A DNA stretch of 64,000 nucleotides from an uncultured bacterium (GTDB lineage Bacteria; Armatimonadota; UBA5829). Where the stretch lies: the NCBI GenBank assembly GCA_938074205.1, contig CALJES010000006.1, forward strand, positions 186,001 to 250,000, read 5' to 3'. The notes beneath the pieces are model-generated. The model was not told the origin of the DNA and made no database searches. It saw only the letters and a list, made by a program, of their open reading frames with translations. Shown piece after piece: positions 1 through 38,933 of this stretch (its first letter is position 1; each line of letters starts with the position of its first letter). The position numbers were made by a program, and so were the translations under genes.

Positions 1-785
1 TCGTGATCGGGAGTCATCAACACATATTTAACATGCCCGTCGCAGAAAACTACTGGCGACCTAGGTGCGTCTTTATCGTGGTTTGCAAATCTATGCTTGG
101 CAGCTTCTTGTTCGCTTTCTCCTGGATATGCACCCCATATCGTATGAGGATCGGCAAAATACGCGTGCATACAGCGGTCGCCCAGCAGGATCATACGACG
201 CGTAGACTTCACCGTAGAGGTCTTCCTTCCGGGCCTAACCTTAATGCCTGACCCAGTTGCCTCGTTGTAGCCTCCGAGCGTAGCAACTACCATACCATTG
301 ACCATCCAGGCCGCATTCATTGGGTAGCTGGTTCCCCACCACTCAAAGTCGGTCTTCCGAAGTGACGGATCAACATTCATGCTCGGATTTATCTTAGGTT
401 CGCTTGGGCACCGCCACATGTTGAAATTCTTGGTGTAAGCGTACAAAGGTCTCTCCTGAGCTTTTGGCTGGCCTGGATCCGGACTTTGACCGGTTTGTCC
501 TCCCACACCCTGTCCAACTGGATAAGGAAGCAAATATTGTGGGGTATGTACAGGACCGGAAAACCAAGGAGCCCAGGGAAAGCAATCATCATAATCGGAT
601 TGGTACCTATGAATGGCAGCTCCCACCTGACGCATATTGGCTATACAAGACGCTAAAACGGCACTCTCTCTGGCACGGACAAATACAGGAAAAAGTATCG
701 CTGCCAAGATTGCGATTATGGCTATGACGACTAGCAGTTCGATCAGGGTAAAGCCAATTCGTGTTTTATGTAGCCTCGCTTTCAT
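1..785 (-). CDS. Prepilin-type DUF1559-like protein, 3' end outside window
   Basis: Reading the minus strand from ATG at 785 gives an uninterrupted frame of 261 codons that runs off the left edge. Residues 11-20 are [10 protein letters not shown], the type IV prepilin / type II pseudopilin cleavage and methylation site, followed by a hydrophobic helix ending in FPVF. Further on there are pairs of Cys, and near the edge comes a His-rich stretch followed by CDGHVKY, the 'H-X9-DG' type end seen in planctomycete and armatimonad prepilin-like families. A GGGAGGG Shine-Dalgarno lies just upstream. The protein is probably assembled into, or exported through, a pilus-like system. Its exact role is unknown. 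A second member of the family lies at 8730-9533. Confidence 0.88.
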
Positions 786-983
786 CTCGTTCCCTCCCGT
801 TCTCTCCAGTCTTGCGCCCACCAAATCCTGTTATCAACACACTGAAGGGGTTAGCAAGTCTGTTGCCTTACTAACTTTATATTGCTCTTCAAAACTCTTG
901 TCAAGCACCGTCCCACAGCCGTTTTCAAGTTATTCTAATTATCGGCCTAATTTGTTAACTCTAAGAGGAATTTATAAAACACG

Positions 984-3089
984 TTACCTGATTACAACAA
1001 TATCTGACTCAGATCTTGCCACAACTATTGGCAATACCTTTCCGTTCTCCAGTTCGGTCACGCTCCAACCAGTTACTATGACAAAACTGCCCGCTGCCGG
1101 TTTTGCGAAGGAACCGCATCTTACCTTGAGCTTCGTGACCGTTCCAACATCGACCGCTAGAGATCCGTCCTCAACATAGAAGTAATCGGATCCACCAGCA
1201 GACACCTTGCCAGCTACGGTCACCAGAACACCAACATTATAGGCACCCGTTCCTAAGTACACCCCTGGTGTAACGCTATTCAGACTGCCGCCGCCTACGC
1301 TGCGTATAGTCATAAAGAACGGCTTCACAGACGCCACTGCATCATAGAGAGACATCGACGTGCAACTTAGATAACGGCTGCCATTGCTGGAAGCAATGGT
1401 GCCCTGCAAGAAAAGTCTTTGTCCTGAAGACAGCAAAGGTAAGTTGGAACCGTAATTGACGCGTATCGCTGGCAGTCCGCGCTCAGAGCTAACAAAGAAC
1501 ACATTGCTTCCGAGCACGCCTGCAGTGCCTGTATACACAACTGGTCCCATAGCAACCGCTGTGCCGTTGGTCAGCTTCAAAGCGGCGCCAATGGGATCAC
1601 TTCTGTGCAGAATTATGTTGCGGGATATGCTGGTTTCGTTGAGCATACGGTCGTAGATTGTGTAAGTAATAGTGTGCGGTCCGTCCACCTCGTGCGTAGG
1701 TATCCAAATAGTGCTGTAATCAGTGTTGTTAGAATCTACCAGCACTCCGTCCACTCGAAGCTCTGCTTTGCAAACTCCGGATCCAGTATCCGTAGGAGTA
1801 CTTGTAGGCTTCACTACCAGGCCTCCGCACACGTAAGTACCATTCGGCACGTTAATGTTCGCAAGCGTTGGCCCTGTTCTATCGGGGTCGGGTTGGGCAC
1901 ACCCCCACTGGACAAACGTTCGTCTGAGGCTTGCCACGTGCACGCCACGGACCTCGATCTGTCCAGGGTCATTCGTTCCTAATCCTGCGTCCCTGGCAAT
2001 CTGAAGGGATGGTATACTGCTGATCTTGTAACCGCAAAGGAGAGCATGAATAGTGTCGATCGCTACAGGATCTTTGCTGGCGAGAATGCAGTGCATTTTT
2101 CCCTCTGGCGGCAGCACTGTCCAACCTCCACCTCCGCCTCCGCCATCGGGACCTCCCACTGGTCCGTTCATTATGCCTACCAGTCCGTCGGTAACTACCA
2201 AGTCCGGAGGACGGCACAGAGTCATGTCCACCATTCCCCTGGCGTTGGTTTCAAGCTCGTTGTAACCCCAGGAAGTTTGGTGAAGCAGAGCCCATTTATA
2301 GCACTCTAACCCTGGGTAGTGGTAAATGTCAGTGGGAGCCAACCCAAACGCCAGCTTAAGCGCGCCCGTAATTCCCGCCAGGTTGTGATTCTTTAGCACT
2401 GGAACACGTATTAGTACGTCGCACTCCAGCACTGGGTTGGGAAGCACGTACACTCGGTCGATCAGGAATCCCTGCTTCAGAACGCGTGTAACCCTTGCGG
2501 GATTATATGGCCCGCTATATGCAGGGTAGTTTGGGTACACTGAGCCAGTTCCGCAGTCATTTGCATCCACAAGCCTGACGCCATATACATCTTCAACCAT
2601 GTATGGTGGCACGGCATCCAATCCGCAGTCTCGGTAGGCTTTTTGGGTCATGGCTCTCGAACTCCAAGAACCTTGTGTACCATCTAAAAATGAAGCTGAC
2701 CCTTCGCAGATAGTTATGTCGCTTGCAGAGACTCCTGCTTCCAAACACATCGCAATAATCGTGCGCACAACTTGCGGATGAGTAGTGACACCGCTATTCA
2801 TCGGATGGCCTGCCTGGACCAGGTTTGGTTGAATAACCACTTTCTTACCAGGACCTACATTGTCCGGTAGCCCCCCAGCGAGCTCTATAGCCTGTCTAAC
2901 TGCGGCATCGATTTCATCGTTCGTGGGATTAACCGATGGTGTCTGCGTAATTGCTACGACGGCTGTTGCGTCACCCAGTTGAGCCTTCGTGAATTGGTTC
3001 TCCAGAAGACTCAGAGAACCCAGAATGATCGACGCCAGAACAACAAAAACAAGCCTACGTCTTTTTAACACGTATTTGCATATACTCAA
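984..3089 (-). CDS. Exported DUF362-domain protein with Ig-like and OB-like C-terminal domains
   Basis: The 701-residue protein starts at TTG 3089, placed 9 nt after a perfect AGGAGG. It has a basic N-terminus and one hydrophobic segment (about residues 13-30), so it is exported or membrane-anchored. Residues about 60-385 match the DUF362 family in pattern (VVIQPNLV, SGVTTHPQVV, CEGSASF, IRVPVLKNHN, TDGLVG). The family often carries iron-sulfur domains, but none is seen here. Residues about 400-490 look like a bacterial Ig-like domain (LRVDGVLVDS, GPHTITYTIYD). Residues about 500-700 look like two beta-rich, OB-fold-like repeats. The biochemical function is unknown. It sits alone between a prepilin gene on the same strand and a divergent small gene. 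Confidence 0.8.
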   Translation of the reverse strand: MSICKYVLKRRRLVFVVLASIILGSLSLLENQFTKAQLGDATAVVAITQTPSVNPTNDEIDAAVRQAIELAGGLPDNVGPGKKVVIQPNLVQAGHPMNSGVTTHPQVVRTIIAMCLEAGVSASDITICEGSASFLDGTQGSWSSRAMTQKAYRDCGLDAVPPYMVEDVYGVRLVDANDCGTGSVYPNYPAYSGPYNPARVTRVLKQGFLIDRVYVLPNPVLECDVLIRVPVLKNHNLAGITGALKLAFGLAPTDIYHYPGLECYKWALLHQTSWGYNELETNARGMVDMTLCRPPDLVVTDGLVGIMNGPVGGPDGGGGGGGWTVLPPEGKMHCILASKDPVAIDTIHALLCGYKISSIPSLQIARDAGLGTNDPGQIEVRGVHVASLRRTFVQWGCAQPDPDRTGPTLANINVPNGTYVCGGLVVKPTSTPTDTGSGVCKAELRVDGVLVDSNNTDYSTIWIPTHEVDGPHTITYTIYDRMLNETSISRNIILHRSDPIGAALKLTNGTAVAMGPVVYTGTAGVLGSNVFFVSSERGLPAIRVNYGSNLPLLSSGQRLFLQGTIASSNGSRYLSCTSMSLYDAVASVKPFFMTIRSVGGGSLNSVTPGVYLGTGAYNVGVLVTVAGKVSAGGSDYFYVEDGSLAVDVGTVTKLKVRCGSFAKPAAGSFVIVTGWSVTELENGKVLPIVVARSESDIVVIR

Positions 3090-3196
3090 ACCGTAAATCC
3101 TCCTGCATCAGGCACAAATACTTGACGTAGTTGATAGCCAATGACATTGTCAATATACCCCCGTTACCAAAGTAGGTCAAGGTCTTTGACAGGCAA

Positions 3197-3227
3197 TTGA
3201 CAGAAGTGAATCATGCTTTTATATAAT
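3197..3227 (+). promoter_or_regulatory. Sigma-70 type promoter for the small gene at 3308
   Basis: A consensus TTGACA lies at 3197-3202. It is followed after 17 bases by TATATA (3220-3225), or after 19 bases by TATAAT (3222-3227). A second TTGACA is at 3186-3191. The arrangement faces the short membrane-protein gene and the tld genes. Confidence 0.6.
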
Positions 3228-3307
3228 CGCGCTTCCAAAGTCTCACACGCCGGAAGAGATTTGACATCAGCTCTCTGAGGGAATATTATGCAGCAGGGTA
3301 TGCGGAG

Positions 3308-3559
3308 ATGGCGGACGCACTGCAGATACTCCTGATAACATTCTCAATTCCACTTATCATAGCTCTGATAGTCCACACCGTGCGCCACGCACGCGAACTC
3401 GACCGTCGGATAGCAGAGTACCGAGAAGAACAAGAATCGCAGACCGGTCCAGTCAACCCATACGAACAAATGGCAGAGCTTTACAGAATCGAGGGAAATG
3501 ACCTGGATAAGACGAATTATCCGAAACGAGTGGGTCCCGAAGACCAATCCGAACGCTAG
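3308..3559 (+). CDS. Small single-pass membrane protein, unknown function
   Basis: This 83-residue frame begins at ATG 3308 behind a good promoter, with a weak AGGG some ten bases upstream. Residues 5-24 form one hydrophobic helix. The rest is charged and soluble (RRIAEYREEQ, NPYEQMAELY), probably cytoplasmic. No family is recognised. Its size and topology resemble small regulatory or adaptor membrane proteins. It ends 90 bases before the tldD start, so the two could be co-transcribed. Gene status rests on the promoter, the coherent membrane topology and the absence of a competing frame. Confidence 0.6.
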   Translation: MADALQILLITFSIPLIIALIVHTVRHARELDRRIAEYREEQESQTGPVNPYEQMAELYRIEGNDLDKTNYPKRVGPEDQSER

Positions 3560-3649
3560 AGAGCAATCGGATGCAGCACTTTTTGAAGCATTTGAAAGAT
3601 GACACTTATATATGCGTCGGAATATGTGGTCCGATCAAGGAGGCAAGAC

Positions 3650-5107
3650 TTGATAGAAGGATTTGATATAGGGAAGTTCTGCGATGCAGTCCTAGAGGCA
3701 GCCAGACTCGCAGGGGCAGAGTATGCAGATGTTCGAATTGTGCACCGCGAGTCGGAGAGTGTCGACCTGCGAATAGGAAAAGTAGAGAGCTTGTGCCAAA
3801 GCTCAACCATCGGGTTCGGTGTACGGGTAATAGCAGCCGGTGCGTGGGGGTTTGCGGCGAGTCCCAAACTCACTGTTGAAGAAGGAAAATCTATCGCCCA
3901 AGAAGCCGTTCGCATCGCTCGGGCTTCTGCTTCTGCAAAACGACGCAATGTAAGACTGGCGCCTGTCGAGCCAGCGGAAGGTTCGTTTTCTAACGATTGG
4001 GAAATTGACCCATTCGAAGTGCCGCTGGAGGAAAAGATAGATTTGCTGAGAGATGCCGATAGATTGATGCGCCAAGCGGAGAAGGTCAAAGTCACAGACT
4101 GCAATATGGACTTTTGGAAGACTTACCAAGTACTTGCTAGCACCGACGGATCCTATATAGAGCAAACCAAGATCGAGAGCGGCGCGGGAATAGCCGCAAC
4201 GGCAATAGATGGAAACGAGGTTCAGAAGCGCTCCTATCCAGCATTAGGCGGCGATTTTGCCGCTGCGGGATATGAGTTCGTTGAATCTCTAAAGGTAATC
4301 GAGCATGCCGAGGAAATAGCACGACAGGCTGTGCAGCTCCTAGATGCACCGCCGTGCCCGTCAGGCGAGTTCACACTCGTCCTGGAAGGCAGCATGCTTG
4401 CGCTGCAAGTGCACGAATCCTGCGGGCATCCGATTGAGCTGGACCGAGTACTAGGAATGGAATCATCGTTCGCCGGTACTAGTTTTTTAACTACCGACAA
4501 GCTAGGTTCATTCAGATATGGTTCTGAGATTGTTAACATAACAGCCGATGCCACAATACCAGGGGCATTGGGCAGCTTCTTCTACGACGACGAGGGAGTA
4601 CCAGCTCAGTGCGTGGAAATTGTAAAGAACGGGGTATTTTCGGGTTACCTCAGTTCTCGTGAGACTGCTGCCGAACTCGGAATCTCCAGCGGAGGTGCAA
4701 TGCGTGCTGATGGCTGGGATCGAATACCACTCATAAGGATGACAAACATCAACCTCCTACCTGGAGACTGGAATCTGGACGAGCTTATCGCGGATACGAT
4801 CGACGGCATATATGCAGCCACGGTCAAGTGCTGGTCTATTGATGACAAACGGCTCAACTTCCAATTTGGCACAGAGGTAGCATGGGAAATCAAAGACGGT
4901 GCTTTGGGCCGAATGTTCCGGAACCTCACCTATAACGATATGACACCACGCTTTTGGAATTCTTGCGATGCAATATGTGGTGAAGACGAGTGGCACGTGT
5001 GGGGTGTGCCCAACTGTGGAAAAGGAGAACCTATGCAAATTGCCCACGTGGGACACGGCGTGGCTCCAGCTCGTTTCAGAGGCGTAAGAATGGAGGCTGC
5101 AAAGTGA
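3650..5107 (+). CDS. tldD: Metalloprotease TldD
   Basis: TldD is one half of the TldD/TldE heterodimeric zinc protease, which threads unfolded peptides and degrades them. In Escherichia coli it matures microcin B17 and processes the CcdA antitoxin. The zinc motif HESCGH is at residues 255-260, with the usual GG-rich C-terminal barrel elements. The reading frame is open back to ATG 3599, but TTG 3650 is the likely start: a perfect AAGGAGG (3637-3643) lies 6 nt before it, and the extra 17 residues have no counterpart in the family. The resulting length is 485 residues, normal for TldD. The stop overlaps the start of tldE by 4 bases (GTGA), so the subunits are probably translationally coupled. 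Confidence 0.93.
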   Translation: MIEGFDIGKFCDAVLEAARLAGAEYADVRIVHRESESVDLRIGKVESLCQSSTIGFGVRVIAAGAWGFAASPKLTVEEGKSIAQEAVRIARASASAKRRNVRLAPVEPAEGSFSNDWEIDPFEVPLEEKIDLLRDADRLMRQAEKVKVTDCNMDFWKTYQVLASTDGSYIEQTKIESGAGIAATAIDGNEVQKRSYPALGGDFAAAGYEFVESLKVIEHAEEIARQAVQLLDAPPCPSGEFTLVLEGSMLALQVHESCGHPIELDRVLGMESSFAGTSFLTTDKLGSFRYGSEIVNITADATIPGALGSFFYDDEGVPAQCVEIVKNGVFSGYLSSRETAAELGISSGGAMRADGWDRIPLIRMTNINLLPGDWNLDELIADTIDGIYAATVKCWSIDDKRLNFQFGTEVAWEIKDGALGRMFRNLTYNDMTPRFWNSCDAICGEDEWHVWGVPNCGKGEPMQIAHVGHGVAPARFRGVRMEAAK

Positions 5108-6429
5108 ATTCGCATTGGATGGGAGAAGACAGAATACGTGCTATGCTGGAAACGGCTCTCGCGGTTTCGCCTGCAGACCAAACAGAGGTAGGGTTCTCAG
5201 TTGGCAGTTGGGCGCTCACGCGCTTTGCTAATTCGTACATCCATCAGAATATGGCGGGTTACAAGGTCAACGCACGAGTTCGAGTAGTATTCGGCAAGAA
5301 AGTGGCCACGACATACGCTAGTGTTGGCAGCGACGATGATTTAAAATCACTAGTGCATCGCGCTGTTGAAATGGCAAAGCACCAAGATGACAACCCAGAC
5401 TTTGTTTCCTTACCTGAACCATCTGACATTCAATCTGCTCCACAATTGCCCAAAAGCTACTCCGATGCTACCGCTGCTTGCTCAGCGCAACAGCGAGCAC
5501 ATTTGGTTCGCGCAGTAATATCGGAAAGCGACCGACTGTCGACGTCCGCAGCGGGTTCTTTGGCCACTTGGGCGTTCGAGCACGCAGTTGCCAACTCTCT
5601 TGGCATACGAAGCTACTACCGAACCACGGCTGCGAGGTTGATTACAGTAGCGACCGGGCCAGACGGAGGATTTGGTTATGCATCTGCAACTTCGATCGAC
5701 ATAGAAGGCATTGATGCATCTGCTGTCGGACGCGAGGCGTCGGAAACCGCACTGGCGAGCTCAAATCCCATCGAGATAGAACCAGACGAATATGAATGCG
5801 TATTGTCGCCGTACGCCACGGCAGCAATAATCGAACACTTTGTCCATATGGGTTTCTGGGCACGCGCGTTTCAAGAGGGCAGGAGCTTCATCTGCGGACG
5901 AATGGGGGAGGGCATTGTCGCACAAAATATAAGTATTTGGGATGATGCGCTGGATCCTCAAACATTAGTGACACCGTACGACGCAGAAGGAGTCAGCAAG
6001 CAGCGAGTGAATATGGTAGACAACGGTGTGGCTAAAGGGCTCCTCTATGATTCGTACGCAGCACACCGCGAAGGGAGAAAGTCGACGGGACACTCAGGCA
6101 GCATCAACCCAATCATGAATCCAGGCGATGCAACACTCAATGATATGATCGCATCAACGGAACGAGGACTCTTAGTAACTCGATTCCATTATACAAACGT
6201 GGCACACTTAATGAGTGCCTCCATAACAGGAATGACTCGCGATGGAACGTTTCTGATCGAGGACGGAAAAATAACAAGACCGGTAAAGAACATGCGCTTT
6301 ACACAGAGTCTGATCGAAGCTCTGTCCAACGTCGAGATGATTGGCCGTGAACTGAAGTTGGTAGATTCGACCCTTGCGCCAGCAATCAAAGTGAGAAAAT
6401 GGCGATTCGTGAGTTCAACTGAGTTTTAG
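5104..6429 (+). CDS. tldE: TldE/PmbA, partner subunit of TldD
   Basis: This is the non-catalytic partner of TldD. It lacks the HExxxH zinc motif, as expected, and keeps the family's C-terminal features (HSGSINPIMNPGD, ERGLLVTRFHYTN, MTRDGTFLIEDG). The frame is open upstream within tldD, but GTG 5104 is the likely start: GGAGG lies 8 nt before it, it overlaps the tldD stop as GTGA, and the resulting 441 residues match the usual PmbA/TldE size. No microcin-like precursor or toxin-antitoxin pair is evident next to the genes, so the cellular substrate cannot be inferred from context. Confidence 0.92.
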   Translation: MNSHWMGEDRIRAMLETALAVSPADQTEVGFSVGSWALTRFANSYIHQNMAGYKVNARVRVVFGKKVATTYASVGSDDDLKSLVHRAVEMAKHQDDNPDFVSLPEPSDIQSAPQLPKSYSDATAACSAQQRAHLVRAVISESDRLSTSAAGSLATWAFEHAVANSLGIRSYYRTTAARLITVATGPDGGFGYASATSIDIEGIDASAVGREASETALASSNPIEIEPDEYECVLSPYATAAIIEHFVHMGFWARAFQEGRSFICGRMGEGIVAQNISIWDDALDPQTLVTPYDAEGVSKQRVNMVDNGVAKGLLYDSYAAHREGRKSTGHSGSINPIMNPGDATLNDMIASTERGLLVTRFHYTNVAHLMSASITGMTRDGTFLIEDGKITRPVKNMRFTQSLIEALSNVEMIGRELKLVDSTLAPAIKVRKWRFVSSTEF

Positions 6430-30557: not shown

Positions 30558-30641
<84 letters not shown>

Positions 30642-30737: not shown

Positions 30738-31541
30738 CTAACCTCTCAGCTTCGACACGATAGATGAGGCAAGAAGCAAAATTCCGGAAAACACAACGAT
30801 CGTTGGGCCCGTCGGCAGATCCAGCTTGTACGATAGAAGTAGACCTGAGACTGTAGATACCGCTGCCGAAACGATTGCAAACGCATAGATACCAACAAAG
30901 CGCTGGCTTAACAAAAGCGCAGTTACAGCAGGTAATACCAAAAAAGCAAATACGAGGAGCATACCAACCACGCGGATCGAAAAGGAAATCACTATGCCCA
31001 AAATGACATAGAAAAGAAGATCCCAAAATGCAACCCGTATCCCATGTGCCTTTGCAGTTTCGGGGTCAAAAGCTGAAAACATAAACTGTTTTTGAAACAA
31101 CGACCACATTAACACTGTAACAGCGAACAAAAACACTGTGAGATAAACTTGTCCTGGGGTTATTGTCAGAATATTCCCTGAAAGGAGATTCAGCATATAC
31201 GCTTCCGCGTGAGCACTCTTAGCCACAAACAATACGGCAATCGCCGATGCCAACGCGTATGCCACTCCGATTATGCTTTCCTGCGTAATCCGACGGTTTC
31301 CAAACCTCACAGCGAACGCTGCAACTCCTCCCAAGGTTAAAGCCAGAGAAACAGTCGCAGGATTCGCACCTGTGCACAAAGCCAACCCAACGCCAGCACT
31401 GGACACCTGAGCAAGTGCCGCTCCAACAAAAACAATGCGACGCAAAACCACGTGCACGCCTAGGAATGCACAGAGACTACCCACTATCAATCCACCGGCA
31501 AAAGCAACCCGGAGAAACGGTACTGTGAACACTTCGCTCAC
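30738..31541 (-). CDS. znuB: Metal (Zn/Mn) ABC transporter permease
   Basis: This 267-residue protein has about eight hydrophobic segments and the pattern of the ABC-3 family (ZnuB/MntB). It starts LRVAFAGGLIVGSLCAFLG and includes ALAQVSSAGVGLAL. GTG 31541 has GGGAGGTAAG upstream and begins 5 bases after the ATPase stop. It forms the channel for zinc or manganese import across the inner membrane. Zinc and manganese cannot be told apart by sequence alone, so the gene symbol is by family. Confidence 0.88.
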   Translation of the reverse strand: MSEVFTVPFLRVAFAGGLIVGSLCAFLGVHVVLRRIVFVGAALAQVSSAGVGLALCTGANPATVSLALTLGGVAAFAVRFGNRRITQESIIGVAYALASAIAVLFVAKSAHAEAYMLNLLSGNILTITPGQVYLTVFLFAVTVLMWSLFQKQFMFSAFDPETAKAHGIRVAFWDLLFYVILGIVISFSIRVVGMLLVFAFLVLPAVTALLLSQRFVGIYAFAIVSAAVSTVSGLLLSYKLDLPTGPTIVVFSGILLLASSIVSKLRG

Positions 31542-31546
31542 TTGTC

Positions 31547-32332
31547 TTACCTCCCAGCCAGCACAACGCGCCTAGTGCCGCATTCTACCAGCTCCACGGG
31601 AATCCCATACACCCTAAACAGATTCTCCGACGAAACGAGTTCGGAAACCGGGCCAATGGTCTTTAGCCCGCCGTCTACAAGAGCTATCGTCTTTGCGTAG
31701 TTCACAACGACATTTAGTAAATGACTAACCATCACAATCGTGATCTTCTGCGAATCGTACAAATCTCTTAGTAGTTCCATAATGGCATACTCGCTCGCGA
31801 CGTCCATGTCGTTGGTCGGCTCATCAAGAGCAATCAGATCAGGCTCGGCAGCCAGAGCACGTGCAATAAGCGTTTTCTGCTTCTGACCCCCACTGAGCTC
31901 CCTAAACTGTCGATCTGCCAAGTCTTCTATCCCGACTCTTTCCATACACGACAATACAAAGGCAAGATCTGATCTGGAAGGTTTACCGATCGGGCTCATC
32001 AATGAGTATCTGCCCATCAAAGCGACTTCAAGAGCGGTAAGAGGGTATACCTCGTCCATCGACTGCCGCTGTGGGACATACGAAAAGCGGACTCCTGGAG
32101 CTTTCGCGACATTTCCCCTGAGCGGTCTTATAATACCCAACATTGTCTTTAGAATAGTGGTCTTGCCCGCACCGTTGGGTCCGACAATAGCGAGAAAATC
32201 TCCTTTACTGACTGAGAGATTGACGTCCGAAAGCACTCTCCATTTGCCGTATCCCAAGTCTGCATGCTCCATCACCACAAGAAAGCCGCGATCGGCGGAT
32301 TCGTCGCCAGCAAGCTGAGAGCTCTGGTTCAT
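31547..32332 (-). CDS. znuC: Metal ABC transporter ATP-binding protein
   Basis: The 261-residue ATPase has Walker A GPNGAGKTT, Q-loop YVPQRQ, ABC signature LSGGQKQK, Walker B LIALDEPTND and the H-loop MVSHLL. It belongs to the ZnuC/MntB group of metal importers. The N-terminus has about 25 extra residues before the ABC domain. It is placed between the binding protein (45 bases upstream) and the permease (5 bases downstream). Confidence 0.92.
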   Translation of the reverse strand: MNQSSQLAGDESADRGFLVVMEHADLGYGKWRVLSDVNLSVSKGDFLAIVGPNGAGKTTILKTMLGIIRPLRGNVAKAPGVRFSYVPQRQSMDEVYPLTALEVALMGRYSLMSPIGKPSRSDLAFVLSCMERVGIEDLADRQFRELSGGQKQKTLIARALAAEPDLIALDEPTNDMDVASEYAIMELLRDLYDSQKITIVMVSHLLNVVVNYAKTIALVDGGLKTIGPVSELVSSENLFRVYGIPVELVECGTRRVVLAGR

Positions 32333-32377
32333 CTGTGCTGTCCTCCAATCAGGATTTCACTGCATACCAAAAAACGT

Positions 32378-33298
32378 TCAGTCCAACGCATTGACGAACT
32401 TGTCTACCCATGTCTCAATTAGATCAAAATAAGTCTTCGTCCCCATGGATCCCACGGAATACGGTACTACCTGATACTTGATGCCCACCTCCCGCGCCAC
32501 CAGATCGGGAAAGCGCTTAGGGTATATAGATTCAACTACAAGCGCCTTCACATTCTCCTCTTTCATTCGCCTTATGAGCTGCGAAATGTGTGAGGGCGAC
32601 GGCGGGATACCAGGATTCGGCTCAAGTTGGTCAAAGTACCTGAGTCCAAAGCGCCGGATGAAATAGCTAGCACTTTTGTGGTACGTCACAACCGGCTTGC
32701 CTTTGTGCGGTGCCAATTTCTGCTGCCAGGCTTTCATATGCCGATCGATCTCGTCTACGAAGTTGTTGTAGTTCTTCTGGAAATACTCTTTGTCCCCCTC
32801 CAATACACGCGTGAGGCCCTCGTAAATGTTTCTGGCTATGATTTTCGCATTTAGGGGATCGTAGTAGTAATGCGGGTTACCGTAAATGTGAATGTCGCCC
32901 GAAGCCCCTGTGACCTTTCCTTTCGGAACCTCCATTCTGTCAATTCCGCGTGAGGCATCGACATAGCCGGCACTACCTCGGCGCACTTTTGGATTCGCAG
33001 CTGCATTAAGCAGAGCGTCAAGCCACAGATCAAGATCCAAACCGACCCGCACAACAAGATCTGCTCTTGCAATGCGGGAAACATCACTTGGTCTGGGTTC
33101 GACAAGGTGGTAGTCCTGGTCGGGTCTGGCAATAGAATAGACAGAAACTTTGCTTCCGCCAACATACCTTACTATGCTGGCAAGCTCCGGCGTAGACGTA
33201 ACTACGTTGACAGCGCCATCAGCAGCAGAACCCATAACTGCAAGTACATGCAAGCACACAAAAACCACGGTCAAGACTCGGACAAACGTATTCGTCAT
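32378..33298 (-). CDS. znuA: Metal ABC transporter solute-binding protein (ZnuA/TroA-like)
   Basis: The 306-residue protein has a signal peptide (about 1-27) and the cluster A-I two-lobed fold. Candidate metal ligands are His in DYHLVEPRP, His in GNPHYYYDP, His in VTYHKSASYF and an acidic residue in VVESIYP. The His-rich loop common in zinc-specific ZnuA is absent, so zinc versus manganese is open. It delivers metal to the membrane permease. It follows the barrel gene by 62 bases. Confidence 0.9.
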   Translation of the reverse strand: MTNTFVRVLTVVFVCLHVLAVMGSAADGAVNVVTSTPELASIVRYVGGSKVSVYSIARPDQDYHLVEPRPSDVSRIARADLVVRVGLDLDLWLDALLNAAANPKVRRGSAGYVDASRGIDRMEVPKGKVTGASGDIHIYGNPHYYYDPLNAKIIARNIYEGLTRVLEGDKEYFQKNYNNFVDEIDRHMKAWQQKLAPHKGKPVVTYHKSASYFIRRFGLRYFDQLEPNPGIPPSPSHISQLIRRMKEENVKALVVESIYPKRFPDLVAREVGIKYQVVPYSVGSMGTKTYFDLIETWVDKFVNALD

Positions 33299-33360
33299 TT
33301 CGGCTAACCTCCCGTATTCCGTTAAGACTTCTAAACTACGAATTTAACATCACCACCTGT

Positions 33361-34569
33361 TCACTCCAGGTTGTGGGTGTGAGGACCGATCCCCCACGCC
33401 CAGTGTAGCCACAGTTCGTTGTAAGAGTCAGCGTTTGGTCTATAACCGTGAGTTGCTTGGAGTCGAACGTAGTACTGCTCCGAAAACTGGCGCGTTAAAA
33501 TAAGAGATACTGCCGATTCGTGTCGGGACACATCCTGTGGAAACTCAGACCAGTCGTAGAGGAAGCCTACGGAGTTATACCTATTCCATCGATAGTCCGC
33601 CAACAAATAATACCCCTTTGCCCTGACTCCATCCGAATCTAGCGTTCCTTTTCGCCAAATGTACTCGCCTCGAAGCAAAAGTCTCCGCGCGCCTCTACCG
33701 AACACTCTGTAGCTCAAGTCAAGTCCGCCCAGATGGACATAGTTTCTGACAAGTGTCGCAGCATCCTCTTCCGAGCTTCCCCCAGCCCAAGACCAACCGA
33801 TCTCAATTTCAGTTATATCCCCCAGTGACTTGGCAAGCCACAGGCGAATCGTTCGAAATCGATCCGTCACTCCGGCACCAGGGCCAACCATTATGTTTGG
33901 AAGGTTGGACTCCTCGCCCTCCGAACCATTAGCCCAGAACCCAACATCCAGTCTAGCGAAAAGTTCGGCACTCACCGGCAGGTTGTAATCAAACAGTATC
34001 CCTTGTCCTGCCAGACTTTCGGGTGAGACAAGATTGCTCAACGCCAGCGGTTGACGAGCGTATAGCCACGAGTGGTTGTGAAGTTGATTGACCCTACCGA
34101 ATGGAACAAACTTCTGACCAATCACGACGTTGAGATTCCGTATTAAGGCCAGATAGGTAATGAACGCTTCGTGTATACCAAAATGCGAGTGGCCAGATTC
34201 TGCCGGACTGCCCGCGATAAACGCGTCGAGTCTCACATTGGGATACACGTAACTCTGTAGCGCCAACTCAGCATCTGTTAGCCTCAACTTCTGCTTTTCC
34301 GGATCCGCTTTGTCGTCAGCAAACTTAGACTTAGCTTGCAGAATAAAGCTGATGTCAGGAAGCTGCTGGAATCTACCTCCAACTTCGCTGGTTGTTTGCG
34401 GTTGCTCTGAAAAATTTCGGTCGGGCTGCAGCAATTCGAGTCTTTGTTCTAGGTCGTAAAGTTTTTGTTTCAGCTCCTCAACGTCTGAAACTCCTGCAGA
34501 GGTATCATTGGCAAATAAAACATCTCCTGCCAAAAGTATACATACTAGCACGAAGAATATTCGTTTCAT
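33361..34569 (-). CDS. Outer-membrane beta-barrel porin-like protein
   Basis: The 402-residue protein has a signal peptide (about 1-24), a short coiled coil (VEELKQKLYDLEQRLELL) and then a long run of alternating amphipathic strands ending in an aromatic-rich tail (WLHWAWGIGPHTHNLE). NVVIGQKFVPFGRVNQ resembles phosphate-selective-porin-like barrels. It is evidence for an outer membrane. As the first large gene before the metal ABC transporter it probably lets the metal or a metal complex into the periplasm. It is not a TonB-dependent receptor, since no plug or TonB box is visible. Confidence 0.82.
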   Translation of the reverse strand: MKRIFFVLVCILLAGDVLFANDTSAGVSDVEELKQKLYDLEQRLELLQPDRNFSEQPQTTSEVGGRFQQLPDISFILQAKSKFADDKADPEKQKLRLTDAELALQSYVYPNVRLDAFIAGSPAESGHSHFGIHEAFITYLALIRNLNVVIGQKFVPFGRVNQLHNHSWLYARQPLALSNLVSPESLAGQGILFDYNLPVSAELFARLDVGFWANGSEGEESNLPNIMVGPGAGVTDRFRTIRLWLAKSLGDITEIEIGWSWAGGSSEEDAATLVRNYVHLGGLDLSYRVFGRGARRLLLRGEYIWRKGTLDSDGVRAKGYYLLADYRWNRYNSVGFLYDWSEFPQDVSRHESAVSLILTRQFSEQYYVRLQATHGYRPNADSYNELWLHWAWGIGPHTHNLE

Positions 34570-34594
34570 TGAAAATCCCCCTCAGTGTGAGACA

Positions 34595-34610
34595 AGATAA
34601 CGCATAATCT
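34595..34610. promoter_or_regulatory. Candidate Zur/Fur-like operator
   Basis: AGATAACGCATAATCT is an imperfect palindrome (12 of 16 positions symmetric), AT-rich, 26 bases before the porin start and next to a TATCTT -10-like sequence. Position and form fit a metal-responsive repressor site, but no consensus was tested. Confidence 0.3.
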
Positions 34611-34678
34611 GAGCGTAGCCAGAAAGACGAACTGCGGCGCGCAATAAAAACGCAGGTAAGAGTTGGTTACCTTAGCAA

Positions 34679-34990
34679 CTAAGAGGAGTAGCTATATGGT
34701 GGAGCGCGGGGTTCTTCGCCGTGGGGCAAATCGACAGGATAAGGCCAGTCTTGCGTAACAAGAGGGCCGTCGCGCAAGATTTCGGTATGAGCGTAACTCG
34801 GCCCGCTGGAATCTAAACCTGATTGAAGGCCAAGCCAGACACAAGCCGGACACGTATGAAGCCTTTCGTGCAAACCATCCCCGTGACCGCCGCACGTGTG
34901 TGCGAACGCAGCCCCCAGGAGTAGTACCATATAGGGCAGCAGGCCTAGCAGAATCAGTTTTCTTACGCACATGACTCTGCTCTGCTTCAT
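34679..34990 (-). CDS. Small secreted Cys/His-rich protein heading the metal-uptake operon
   Basis: The 103-residue frame has a signal peptide ending at about Ala30. The mature N-terminus is dense in metal ligands: His31, Cys33, His36, His41, His45, Cys47 and Cys50 (HTCGGHGDG, then HERLHTCPAC). The C-terminus is Pro-rich and ends near RAPP. It is reminiscent of DUF2946-type small proteins, with low certainty. It lies 109 bases before the porin gene on the same strand, so a role as a periplasmic metal chaperone or sensor is plausible. No strong Shine-Dalgarno was found. ATG 34970 is an alternative start. Confidence 0.6.
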   Translation of the reverse strand: MKQSRVMCVRKLILLGLLPYMVLLLGAAFAHTCGGHGDGLHERLHTCPACVWLGLQSGLDSSGPSYAHTEILRDGPLVTQDWPYPVDLPHGEEPRAPPYSYSS

Positions 34991-36764: not shown

Positions 36765-37550
36765 CTATGAGTCTGGTCCGAAGCCCTTTTCGAGCTTGTC
36801 CAATGCCTTCCGGAATGATTCTATGAGGTCTATCGGCATCGGGAAAACTATCGTTGTATTGTGCTCGGTTCCTATTTCGCGCAGGGTCTGCAGGTACCGC
36901 AGCTGCAGCGCTTGGGGATTGGCACTAATCGTATCGGCCGCTTCTCTCAACTTCTGAGCTGCCTGAGCCTCGCCTTCTGCATTAATGATCTTGGCACGCC
37001 GCTCTCGCTCTGTCTCAGCTTGGTTCGCCATTGCGCGCTTCATACTTTCGGGAAGCGTAACATCTCTAACTTCCACGGCAAGGACTTTGATTCCCCAGGG
37101 CTCTGTAACCTCATCAATTATGCTTTGAAGCTTGGAATTGATCTTATCTCGCTCAGCCAGCAATTCGTCCAGTTCTGCCTGGCCTATCACACTTCGCAAC
37201 GTCGTTTGAGCCTGCAAAGAAGTAGCTCTGACCCAGTTCTCCACCTTCGTGACAGCGTACTCCGCATTGATAACCTGAAAGAACACCACTGCATCAACCA
37301 TTACCGAGACGTTGTCTCGCGTGATAATCTCCTGTTTCGGAACGTCCATGGTCACGACGCGAGTGTCGATTACGATCAGCTTGTCAATAACCGGCCACAC
37401 AAAACGAATCCCGGGCATCTTGACGTGATCGAAACGACCAAAACGCAACAGCACGCCCCTTTCCCATTCCCGGATTATCCTCACTGAGTTAGCGACGACA
37501 ATAACCACGAAAAAGATTAGAATCCCTATCGCACCGTATAACTCTCCCAT
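36765..37550 (-). CDS. Slipin (SPFH/Band 7 membrane protein)
   Basis: The 261-residue protein has one N-terminal membrane helix (about 5-25) and an SPFH domain typical of bacterial slipins (REWERGVLLRFG, GIRFVWPVID, VVTMDVPKQE, VDAVVFFQV, RAMANQAETERERRAKIINAEGE), with a coiled C-terminal helix. Slipins form oligomers at the inner membrane. They are commonly paired with an NfeD-type protease, and such a gene lies 84 bases upstream here, in the expected order for a two-gene operon. Confidence 0.92.
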   Translation of the reverse strand: MGELYGAIGILIFFVVIVVANSVRIIREWERGVLLRFGRFDHVKMPGIRFVWPVIDKLIVIDTRVVTMDVPKQEIITRDNVSVMVDAVVFFQVINAEYAVTKVENWVRATSLQAQTTLRSVIGQAELDELLAERDKINSKLQSIIDEVTEPWGIKVLAVEVRDVTLPESMKRAMANQAETERERRAKIINAEGEAQAAQKLREAADTISANPQALQLRYLQTLREIGTEHNTTIVFPMPIDLIESFRKALDKLEKGFGPDS

Positions 37551-37634
37551 AATACCCTCCTTGAAATTTACTTAAATTGTCTACTGAACACTGCAAAGCA
37601 GTTTAGTTGCCACACTCACAGCCGAAATTCGCAC

Positions 37635-38933
37635 TCACTCACCTGCGTGCCTGCGAACCTTTAGCTTGAGACCTTGCATCTCCACAACTTCAACCAGCTC
37701 ACCCTTTGAAATCTTACCATCGATGCTGGTAGCAGTCCAAAGAGAACCGTCGACGAACACCTTGCCTATCGGGTCAAGGTCAGTTTTAGCCTCGCCGATG
37801 TGTCCAACCACACCTTCCCGACCCGACAAATAAGGGTTCTTGAGTGCTCGAACTCCCAAACTCACCACAAAGGCAAAAAAGCCAGTAGTAAGCAACGTCA
37901 CGAACGCAAGAAGCCATATAGGCAGCATGAATCCCTCCGCAGCCCTGAAAAGCATAATCAGCCCCAGGAACAGACTTATTGCGCCGCCGACTGTGAGGAC
38001 CCCATGTGTCGGCGTAAAGAGCTCAATCAAGAACATTGCTATTCCAAGAGCTATAAACACAAAGCCAGCCACATTAACGGGCAGTACGCTATAAGAATAG
38101 AGCAAGAGTACAATGGAAATGGCACCAATTACGCCCGGAAATATCGATCCCGGATTGGCGAGTTCGTAAATCAGGCCGTATGTTGCTGCAAGTGTTAGAA
38201 ACAGCACCACCATCGGATTGCTCAGGTAGTGCAAGAACTTTTCCCATGGGCTCATGGGTTGGTCTTCGATAGGGGCAGACTTGGTTCTGAGCACTATAAT
38301 TTTGTCGCCAGCTACCTTCACACGGCGGCCGTCGAGCTTATGCATTAAATCCGCTACGTTCTTAGCGATAAGATCGATAACGTTTTTTGCAAGAGCCTCT
38401 TTGGACGTCAGATTCGATGCCTCGCGCACAGCCTTTTCAGCCCACTCTACGTTCCGCCCACGTTCTTTAGCAATAGACCTGGCCTTGGCAGCAAGATCGT
38501 TTATTATCTTGCGTTCCATGGACTTGCCAATTTTCTCAACCTCACCGGACGGACTCAGTGCCACAGGTGTAGCAGATCCGATATTCGACACCGGCGACAT
38601 AGCTGCCACGTGAGCAACCATTGTAATTAGCGCGCCGGCAGAAGCTGCAGTCGCTCCGTCCGGCGATACATACACTATGACGGGAATCTTAGATGCCAGA
38701 ATAGATTGGATTATCTTCTGCGTGGAACTAAGCAGCCCACCCGGCGTGTCCATAACAATTAAGACCGCTTGAGCCCGTTCTTGGGCGCGAGCTATTCCCG
38801 CGGTGATGTAGTCTGCCGTTACCGGGTCTATCTGATCGACTATATAAAGCTGGACTACCGGTAGTGGTTCCTCAGCGTGTAACGGCAATAGAATCAGGAT
38901 TAGAAGTAAAAGCAAAACGATTCTAGGTATCAT
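37635..38933 (-). CDS. NfeD-family membrane serine protease (ClpP-class)
   Basis: The 432-residue long-form NfeD has a signal peptide (about 1-20) and a ClpP-class protease domain (about 25-230), with MDTPGGLLSS and ATAASAGALI carrying the nucleophile Ser. A Lys in the following helical segment would serve as general base. Four or five membrane helices follow (about 245-370), then a C-terminal OB-fold NfeD domain (about 375-430). Archaeal relatives cleave the C-terminus of the partner stomatin. The adjacent slipin gene is the expected partner. Confidence 0.92.
   Translation of the reverse strand: MIPRIVLLLLLILILLPLHAEEPLPVVQLYIVDQIDPVTADYITAGIARAQERAQAVLIVMDTPGGLLSSTQKIIQSILASKIPVIVYVSPDGATAASAGALITMVAHVAAMSPVSNIGSATPVALSPSGEVEKIGKSMERKIINDLAAKARSIAKERGRNVEWAEKAVREASNLTSKEALAKNVIDLIAKNVADLMHKLDGRRVKVAGDKIIVLRTKSAPIEDQPMSPWEKFLHYLSNPMVVLFLTLAATYGLIYELANPGSIFPGVIGAISIVLLLYSYSVLPVNVAGFVFIALGIAMFLIELFTPTHGVLTVGGAISLFLGLIMLFRAAEGFMLPIWLLAFVTLLTTGFFAFVVSLGVRALKNPYLSGREGVVGHIGEAKTDLDPIGKVFVDGSLWTATSIDGKISKGELVEVVEMQGLKLKVRRHAGE

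Follow-up and report, generated by a model that had tools for sequence, protein, structure and literature searches.

We have found, in a 64,000-nucleotide stretch of DNA from an uncultured Armatimonadota bacterium (UBA5829; GenBank assembly GCA_938074205.1, contig CALJES010000006.1, positions 186,001 to 250,000; hereafter the window), an operon of five genes in which the small first gene is very likely, by analogy with published relatives, an upstream open reading frame (uORF) coding for a ribosome arrest peptide. The best explanation of the data, and one that we consider probable, is that this uORF is a zinc-responsive member of the CruR/DUF2946 type and controls in cis the genes behind it, a predicted outer-membrane porin (the barrel) and a ZnuACB importer. 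The gene order, the conserved spacing between two motifs of the uORF, the purifying selection acting on it and a predicted RNA pairing with its controls were obtained in this analysis. Arrest at an RAPP motif, metal sensing by CxxC and release of a masked Shine-Dalgarno sequence are taken from papers on relatives and would apply here by analogy; zinc as the ligand, the direction of the response and transport by the porin are what we infer.

When the 103-residue product of the first gene was used as a query, two congeners (G002 and G001; labels of this kind are ours) were matched at the same genomic place. Outside the genus this single-protein search gave E-values near chance, from 0.006 upward, so uORFs were sought by position and motif instead. 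We searched the 1.5 kb located 5' of the barrel gene for frames with a CxxC and with an RxPP within the last 16 residues. The pattern selected 36 frames, present in 34 of the 38 Armatimonadota barrel loci, and 25 of them were aligned (alignment A1). The features that lie outside the selection criteria are the CxxC-RxPP spacing, the Ala of RAPP, a His at position 31 (H31) and, inside the searched stretch, the closeness to the barrel. The spacing was 42–45 residues over the 36 frames (mean 43.6, standard deviation 0.72; if a frame had several CxxC, the one closest to a spacing of 45 was used), with 44 in the window, and the spacer itself was variable in sequence and nearly constant in length. 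RAPP was found exactly in 31/36 uORFs, and H31, located behind the hydrophobic segment, was common to the 25 members of A1. This N-terminal hydrophobic segment is present in all 36 uORFs (best 15-residue Kyte-Doolittle mean 1.6–2.9), export being judged by hydropathy. Besides, at least one His and at least two His or Cys precede CxxC in 61/61 uORFs compared (36 + 25), with an HxH or HxC there in 56 of them. The ratio of nonsynonymous to synonymous substitution rates (dN/dS) of the uORF averaged 0.29 over the 27 of 28 pairs that could be computed from eight congeneric genomes, and seven of the 25 members of A1 matched DUF2946 (PF11162) at E<=10, the best at 3.4e-6.

The combination of motifs and spacing was found 36 times in the 1.5 kb preceding the barrel and at one other place (487 kb, 3807 frames), and this sole off-site occurrence was itself a match of the uORF profile (E 1e-6). 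Scrambled motifs combined with CxxC gave no frame (PPxR) or one (RPxP). Leaving CxxC aside, the true motif gave 35 frames upstream and 6 elsewhere, and among four scrambled motifs PR[AG]P gave 17 upstream, owing to its overlap with PRAPP, and the other three 1 or 2 each.

The barrel was detected in 39 of 101 relatives. We fetched 40 barrel stretches and used 38, since two (L088 and L090) showed no barrel by tblastn. The gene znuA follows the barrel in 35 of the 38 loci, and znuA, znuC and znuB are all present in 31; the three loci lacking a following znuA include two contig ends, and several incomplete importers are likewise located at contig ends. Looking from the importer side, we kept 85 of 101 ZnuA-family places (16 short, weak or second-fragment rows were dropped). 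A profile-detected uORF was located within 3 kb upstream at 34 of them, with a barrel on the contig in 33/34, as against 4/51 for the unlinked places. Of the 55 matches that the uORF profile gave in the 101 genomes, 36 have a ZnuA gene no more than 3 kb downstream; among the remaining ones are contig ends, as well as operons that encode TonB receptors or PEP-CTERM proteins. An earlier note on this DNA had staked its reading on the small frame being kept in relatives together with ZnuA-type operons, and on the barrel not being found apart from the importer; the counts above agree with it on each of these points. In three loci (L126, L127 and L130) RxPP uORFs precede ExbB/TonB/TonB-receptor-like genes, in genomes where the ZnuA family was not matched; the L126 receptor was tested against families, and the remaining neighbors are what we take to be ExbB, TonB and TonB-receptor-like proteins.

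The association extends beyond Armatimonadota. A comparison of five close barrels with named genomes gave 13 loci, ten of them Armatimonadota/Armatimonadetes, one Abditibacteriaceae, one named as "bacterium" and one Candidatus Anammoxibacter, which we take to belong to Planctomycetota. Here the gene order was uORF, barrel, znuA, znuC, znuB, and the uORF was missed by profile A1 and found by the motif pattern. The barrel profile matched in 79 of 117 anammox-related genomes, in many cases along just a part of its length. A second set was built from 20 of the 23 best barrel places (leaving out the anammox genome itself, L151, and G117 and G210), and in 20/20 there were one or two RxPP uORFs upstream, with spacings of 41–47, and znuA downstream. 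By gene order, then, a uORF heads the metal operon in all the second-set loci examined, as it does in the 34 Armatimonadota loci. At four loci (L183, L184, L186 and L187) the barrel is preceded by a tandem pair of differing RxPP uORFs, perhaps two sensors in series; one uORF of the pair has a cluster of the form HHHH..H.HDP..C..C.

In both sets the Shine-Dalgarno sequence of the next gene is predicted to be masked by RNA structure, as in CutF-like switches. In the window, 34678-34686 pairs with 34577-34586 in the minimum-energy and centroid folds. We calculated the pairing probability of the Shine-Dalgarno with the RNA that goes from the Pro-Pro codons through six bases past the stop, taking dinucleotide-shuffled upstream RNA as reference. 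The values were 0.70 vs 0.07 shuffled in Armatimonadota (n=27, Wilcoxon p 5e-6), 0.63 vs 0.07 after one genus was thinned by dropping seven of its eight loci (n=20, p 1e-4) and 0.54 vs 0.06 in the second set (n=15, 10 above 0.5, p 0.003), the p-values being indicative because the loci are related. At the control junction, the end of the barrel against the znuA Shine-Dalgarno, they were 0.09 vs 0.06 (n=15) and 0.12 vs 0.14 (n=14). These tests omit loci with no assigned start, too-short ones and gaps above 160 nucleotides in Armatimonadota, the gap limits being 300 or 400 nucleotides for the second set and control. In an earlier version, where the arm began after the A site, the mean z was -0.83 over 31 loci and the mean arm pairing 0.33; in later tests the arm takes in the Pro-Pro codons. 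A version beginning at the P site gave a paired Shine-Dalgarno at 0.92 vs 0.76 shuffled (31 loci, p 7e-5), with L053, L056 and L089 below their own shuffles; it is prone to an edge effect and was therefore repeated with 60 nucleotides more upstream and with the control junction. The anti-Shine-Dalgarno CCTCC was found in the Pro-Pro codons of 21/36 Armatimonadota uORFs, compared with 133/764 in the background.

We propose the following switch. Zinc would bind the His/Cys cluster and CxxC while the uORF product is being synthesized and exported. Without zinc, the ribosome would stall at RAPP, the two Pro codons filling its P and A sites, and would there cover or adjoin the RNA otherwise paired with the porin Shine-Dalgarno, so that the ribosome-binding site would be left free and the uptake operon made. 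With zinc, metal-driven folding would pull the chain, the arrest would be released, the RNA would pair again and expression would drop. The porin would admit zinc across the outer membrane and ZnuACB would import it. Shine-Dalgarno release is likely to be the route, judging from the predicted folds, with Rho as a possible partner. An RAPP uORF that acts by Rho-dependent termination instead would have the same peptide motifs and spacing, and this mechanism has been shown for CruR in Bordetella (PMC9426467). Against it stands the specific pairing predicted in two sets with negative controls, and we regard such a replacement as rather unlikely; the two routes could also act together.

That zinc is the signal we consider likely, first because of what follows the porin. 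The importer genes matched PF01297 (1.8e-57), ABC_tran (2.8e-26) and ABC-3 (1.2e-50) in Pfam, so that solute-binding protein, ATPase and ABC-3-group permease occur together, and this is the zinc/manganese ABC-3 group. The top NCBIfam models were AztC, AztA and AztB, all below their cut-offs (125.5/350, 185/220 and 117.6/280). In the binding protein the third ligand place is His, being Glu in the three best-aligned manganese proteins, and the fourth has no acidic residue; we assume the ligand roles of these places and the rule that zinc binding goes with three His and no Glu at the third place. The three-His set was found in 55/55 binding proteins of barrel loci with a readable znuA, the one in the window included; these linked rows are barrel loci, and L066, L074 and L091, with no uORF by the pattern, are among them. 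We tried the ligand set as a discriminator between linked and unlinked binding proteins and found no difference. The genome of the window has a second ZnuA-family binding protein (L210, G000:C3:79219-79992), on a contig with no uORF or barrel match.

Besides, the uORF at L128 (G093) is located just upstream of a gene for a member of the Zur-repressed all3515 family, matched at E 6.5e-79 and 264.9 bits (cut-off 75). In positions 1-5500 of that locus (G093:C409) the RAPP uORF leads a run of secreted proteins, two of them with PEP-CTERM tails, the all3515-family protein being the first. At L067 (G099:C112) an RGPP uORF has a FUR-family gene on one side and a TonB receptor on the other. There the FUR gene, the uORF, the receptor and a TonB-like protein directly precede a second unit of uORF, barrel, ZnuA and ZnuC, possibly a zinc-uptake cluster with two outer-membrane routes. 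There is also a precedent for zinc acting on an arrested chain, as zinc-dependent folding of the two-His two-Cys finger of ADR1a releases SecM arrest in vitro (PMC4571824). The same features bear on a CruR-type sensor of copper, or of several metals, that would tune metal import when copper changes. CruR and CutF, the two relatives tested in the cited papers, respond to copper (PMC9426467, PMC9973294), CxxC is a recognized copper-binding motif (PMC9426467) and some members match DUF2946. But the operon encodes a three-His Znu/Azt-type importer, a family member stands upstream of the Zur-repressed gene, and the extra His and Cys before CxxC are present in every uORF of a comparison that had no copper-operon DUF2946 members in it. 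We consider a copper sensor improbable.

Several observations weigh against a zinc-responsive uORF acting through the Shine-Dalgarno. The invariance of CxxC and RxPP in alignment A1 is circular and proves nothing, since both motifs were selection criteria, and in four of the 38 loci (L066, L074, L087 and L091) the pattern was not matched upstream of the barrel. The 103-residue protein of the window has itself no DUF2946 match in Pfam, and some family members head TonB-receptor operons to which no metal is assigned. Of the 51 unlinked binding proteins 20 were compared, and 17 of these also have the three-His set (the exceptions are L203, L219 and L220, of which L203 and L219 look badly aligned), as do the three barrel loci with no detected uORF, so that the ligands indicate a zinc-type importer and not one set apart. 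The total fold energy of the window's leader is no stronger than that of shuffles (z -0.08). Its pairing is 0.95–0.99 when the RNA folded reaches back 15–30 nucleotides from the end of the stop codon, falls to 0.23–0.55 when it reaches back 45–200 nucleotides and was 0.02 in the Armatimonadota-wide test, where the congener L053 gave 0.07; as it varies with the stretch folded, support for the masking step is good in the family and only moderate in this genome. CCTCC showed no clear excess in the second set (11/25 against 98/313). Lastly, CruR uses Rho in Bordetella, so that the Shine-Dalgarno route may not be the sole one.

The earlier note had described an envelope-spanning operon in which the small protein carries metal. 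The conserved plug-less porin and the Znu-type importer uphold the first part. As for the second, a secreted carrier or chaperone of zinc, acting together with the porin, would be exported (by prediction), rich in Cys and His and conserved beside porin and importer, all of which is the case here. The RAPP tail and the fixed distance from CxxC, over a spacer that varies in sequence and hardly in length, mark a cis-acting uORF instead, as do its constant place before the first structural gene and a 3' end predicted to pair with the next Shine-Dalgarno. In addition, CutF is undetectable as a protein and functions only in cis (PMC9973294), and CruR was absent from earlier proteomics (PMC9426467). 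We have rejected the carrier as the main explanation on the constancy of the spacer length, the pairing and these precedents; such a function is very unlikely. A secretion monitor of the SecM/ApdA kind lacking metal sensing, which would likewise have RAPP and an export signal, we find scarcely credible, as the His/Cys ligands are kept and the genes downstream are for metal uptake and not for Sec or YidC.

The coordinates are collected in Table 1. All five open reading frames were found on one strand at the coordinates given in the earlier note, and its further descriptions hold: seven Cys/His in 20 residues (31-50 of the 103-residue protein), a complete ZnuA-C-B-type importer and a barrel not of the TonB type. 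Our model predicts 16 strands and no plug for this barrel. The uORF has two candidate starts, ATG 34990 and ATG 34972. Just 3' of the permease gene, on the same strand, there is a tRNA-Leu (TAA) gene (30558-30641), and an SPFH/Band 7 protein adjoining an NfeD1b-type protein is encoded at 36765-38933.

Table 1. Features of the operon, in window coordinates.
Feature	Position	Strand	Remark
CruR-like uORF, 103 residues; export signal, His/Cys cluster, CxxC, C-terminal RAPP	34679..34990	-	
CPAC codons (C47, C50)	34841..34852	-	proposed metal ligands, with H31/C33/H36/H41/H45
RAPP codons (R95-P98)	34697..34708	-	proposed ribosome arrest motif; five further residues before the stop
Final uORF codons and stop	34678..34686	-	predicted partner of the barrel Shine-Dalgarno; depends on the length of RNA folded
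Barrel-gene Shine-Dalgarno GAGGGGGA	34577..34586	-	predicted partner of 34678-34686
16-strand outer-membrane porin (predicted), 402 residues; N-terminal helix, LHxH, C-terminal GPHxH	33361..34569	-	
ZnuA-type solute-binding protein, 306 residues	32378..33298	-	presumed ligands H64, H143, H207
ZnuC/AztA-type ATPase, 261 residues	31547..32332	-	
ZnuB/AztB-type permease (ABC-3), 267 residues	30738..31541	-	

The barrel of the window had no Pfam or NCBIfam match, the Pfam matches of its 14 relatives were weak and scattered, and a sequence search among solved structures gave no credible relative. The AlphaFold2 model, made from a shallow alignment of 14 sequences, has 16 strands after an N-terminal helix (27-47) that is probably a coiled coil (predicted local distance difference test 79.2, predicted template modeling score 0.74). 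TonB-dependent receptors have a plug domain and a 22-strand barrel, unlike this protein with its 16 modeled strands and no Pfam match. The top Foldseek matches to the model were Vibrio OmpT and then OprP. VIA-align gave OprO (Z 26.8, root mean square deviation 10.0 over 314) and OprP (Z 26.7, 4.8 over 299), with the OmpF/OmpC-type porins ranking below at Z about 23 to 24. The 14 sequences share the motifs LHxH (H164 invariant, H166 nearly so) and C-terminal GPHxH (H397, H399).

Such nascent-chain switches have so far been described for copper, and the operon is a concrete candidate for zinc, suggesting that the metal of uORF sensors can be changed. By the account of the CruR authors, no riboswitch is described for copper or zinc, and uORF protein sensing may fill this place for copper (PMC9426467). 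The words zinc and znu are absent from the main texts of PMC9973294, PMC12992588 and PMC10987492, and zinc from PMC9426467, the abbreviation Zn not being covered; no zinc-responsive arrest uORF appeared among the literature matches listed, at the level of titles and abstract openings, with most subscription journals, figures and supplements outside. If the proposal is true, two bacterial phyla would make use of a post-transcriptional switch for zinc, and the partner of zinc import would be a plug-less porin and not a TonB receptor. The fullest version of it, a natural zinc-sensing nascent chain in which a zinc-finger-like site pulls RAPP free and the same final codons mask the porin Shine-Dalgarno, in two phyla, seems to us evenly balanced between true and false. 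The operon offers a ready test system, with one short gene and one reporter.

Among known systems CruR (Bp2923, DUF2946/PF11162) of Bordetella pertussis is the closest. Like the uORF of the window it is short, stands first in an operon for metal uptake and has a predicted export signal. The distance from CXXC to RAPP is 45 residues, give or take one or two (PMC9426467), against 44 in the window, and its arrest was shown in vitro, the ribosomal P and A sites being occupied by the two Pro codons (PMC12992588). CruR differs in that the arrest is relieved by copper, transcription is ended by Rho and the operon is that of a TonB receptor (PMC9426467), whereas the window has a porin and ZnuACB, further His/Cys before CxxC and a predicted masked Shine-Dalgarno. 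CutF of Rhodobacter capsulatus is likewise an exported uORF with a metal motif, a C-terminal Pro motif and a stem-loop that hides the next Shine-Dalgarno, but there copper strengthens the stall and turns on a detoxification gene, the switch of the window being expected to have the reverse sign; the contexts named for CutF-like genes are Cu, Ni and Co (PMC9973294). ApdA and ApdP share the C-terminal RAPP and its published arrest, and SecM, with RAGP, also exposes a masked ribosome-binding site when the ribosome stalls (PMC10951233), but these are monitors of protein export, with no metal sensing in the descriptions compared. The fusion of the ADR1a zinc finger to SecM resembles the proposal in that zinc-driven folding in the ribosome tunnel frees a stalled ribosome; it is laboratory-made and works best at 24-26 residues from the point of arrest (PMC4571824), and the uORF of the window would be a counterpart in nature, CxxC and RAPP being about 44 residues apart. 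The 16-strand porins OprO and OprP have the same fold as the barrel model at 12–17% identity, but OprP is titled phosphate-specific and the barrel has the conserved LHxH and GPHxH. Finally, the importer has in common with AztABC/ZnuABC the three-His binding protein and, with AztC, AztA and AztB, its best NCBIfam matches, and differs in the sub-cut-off Azt scores and in the porin that precedes it.

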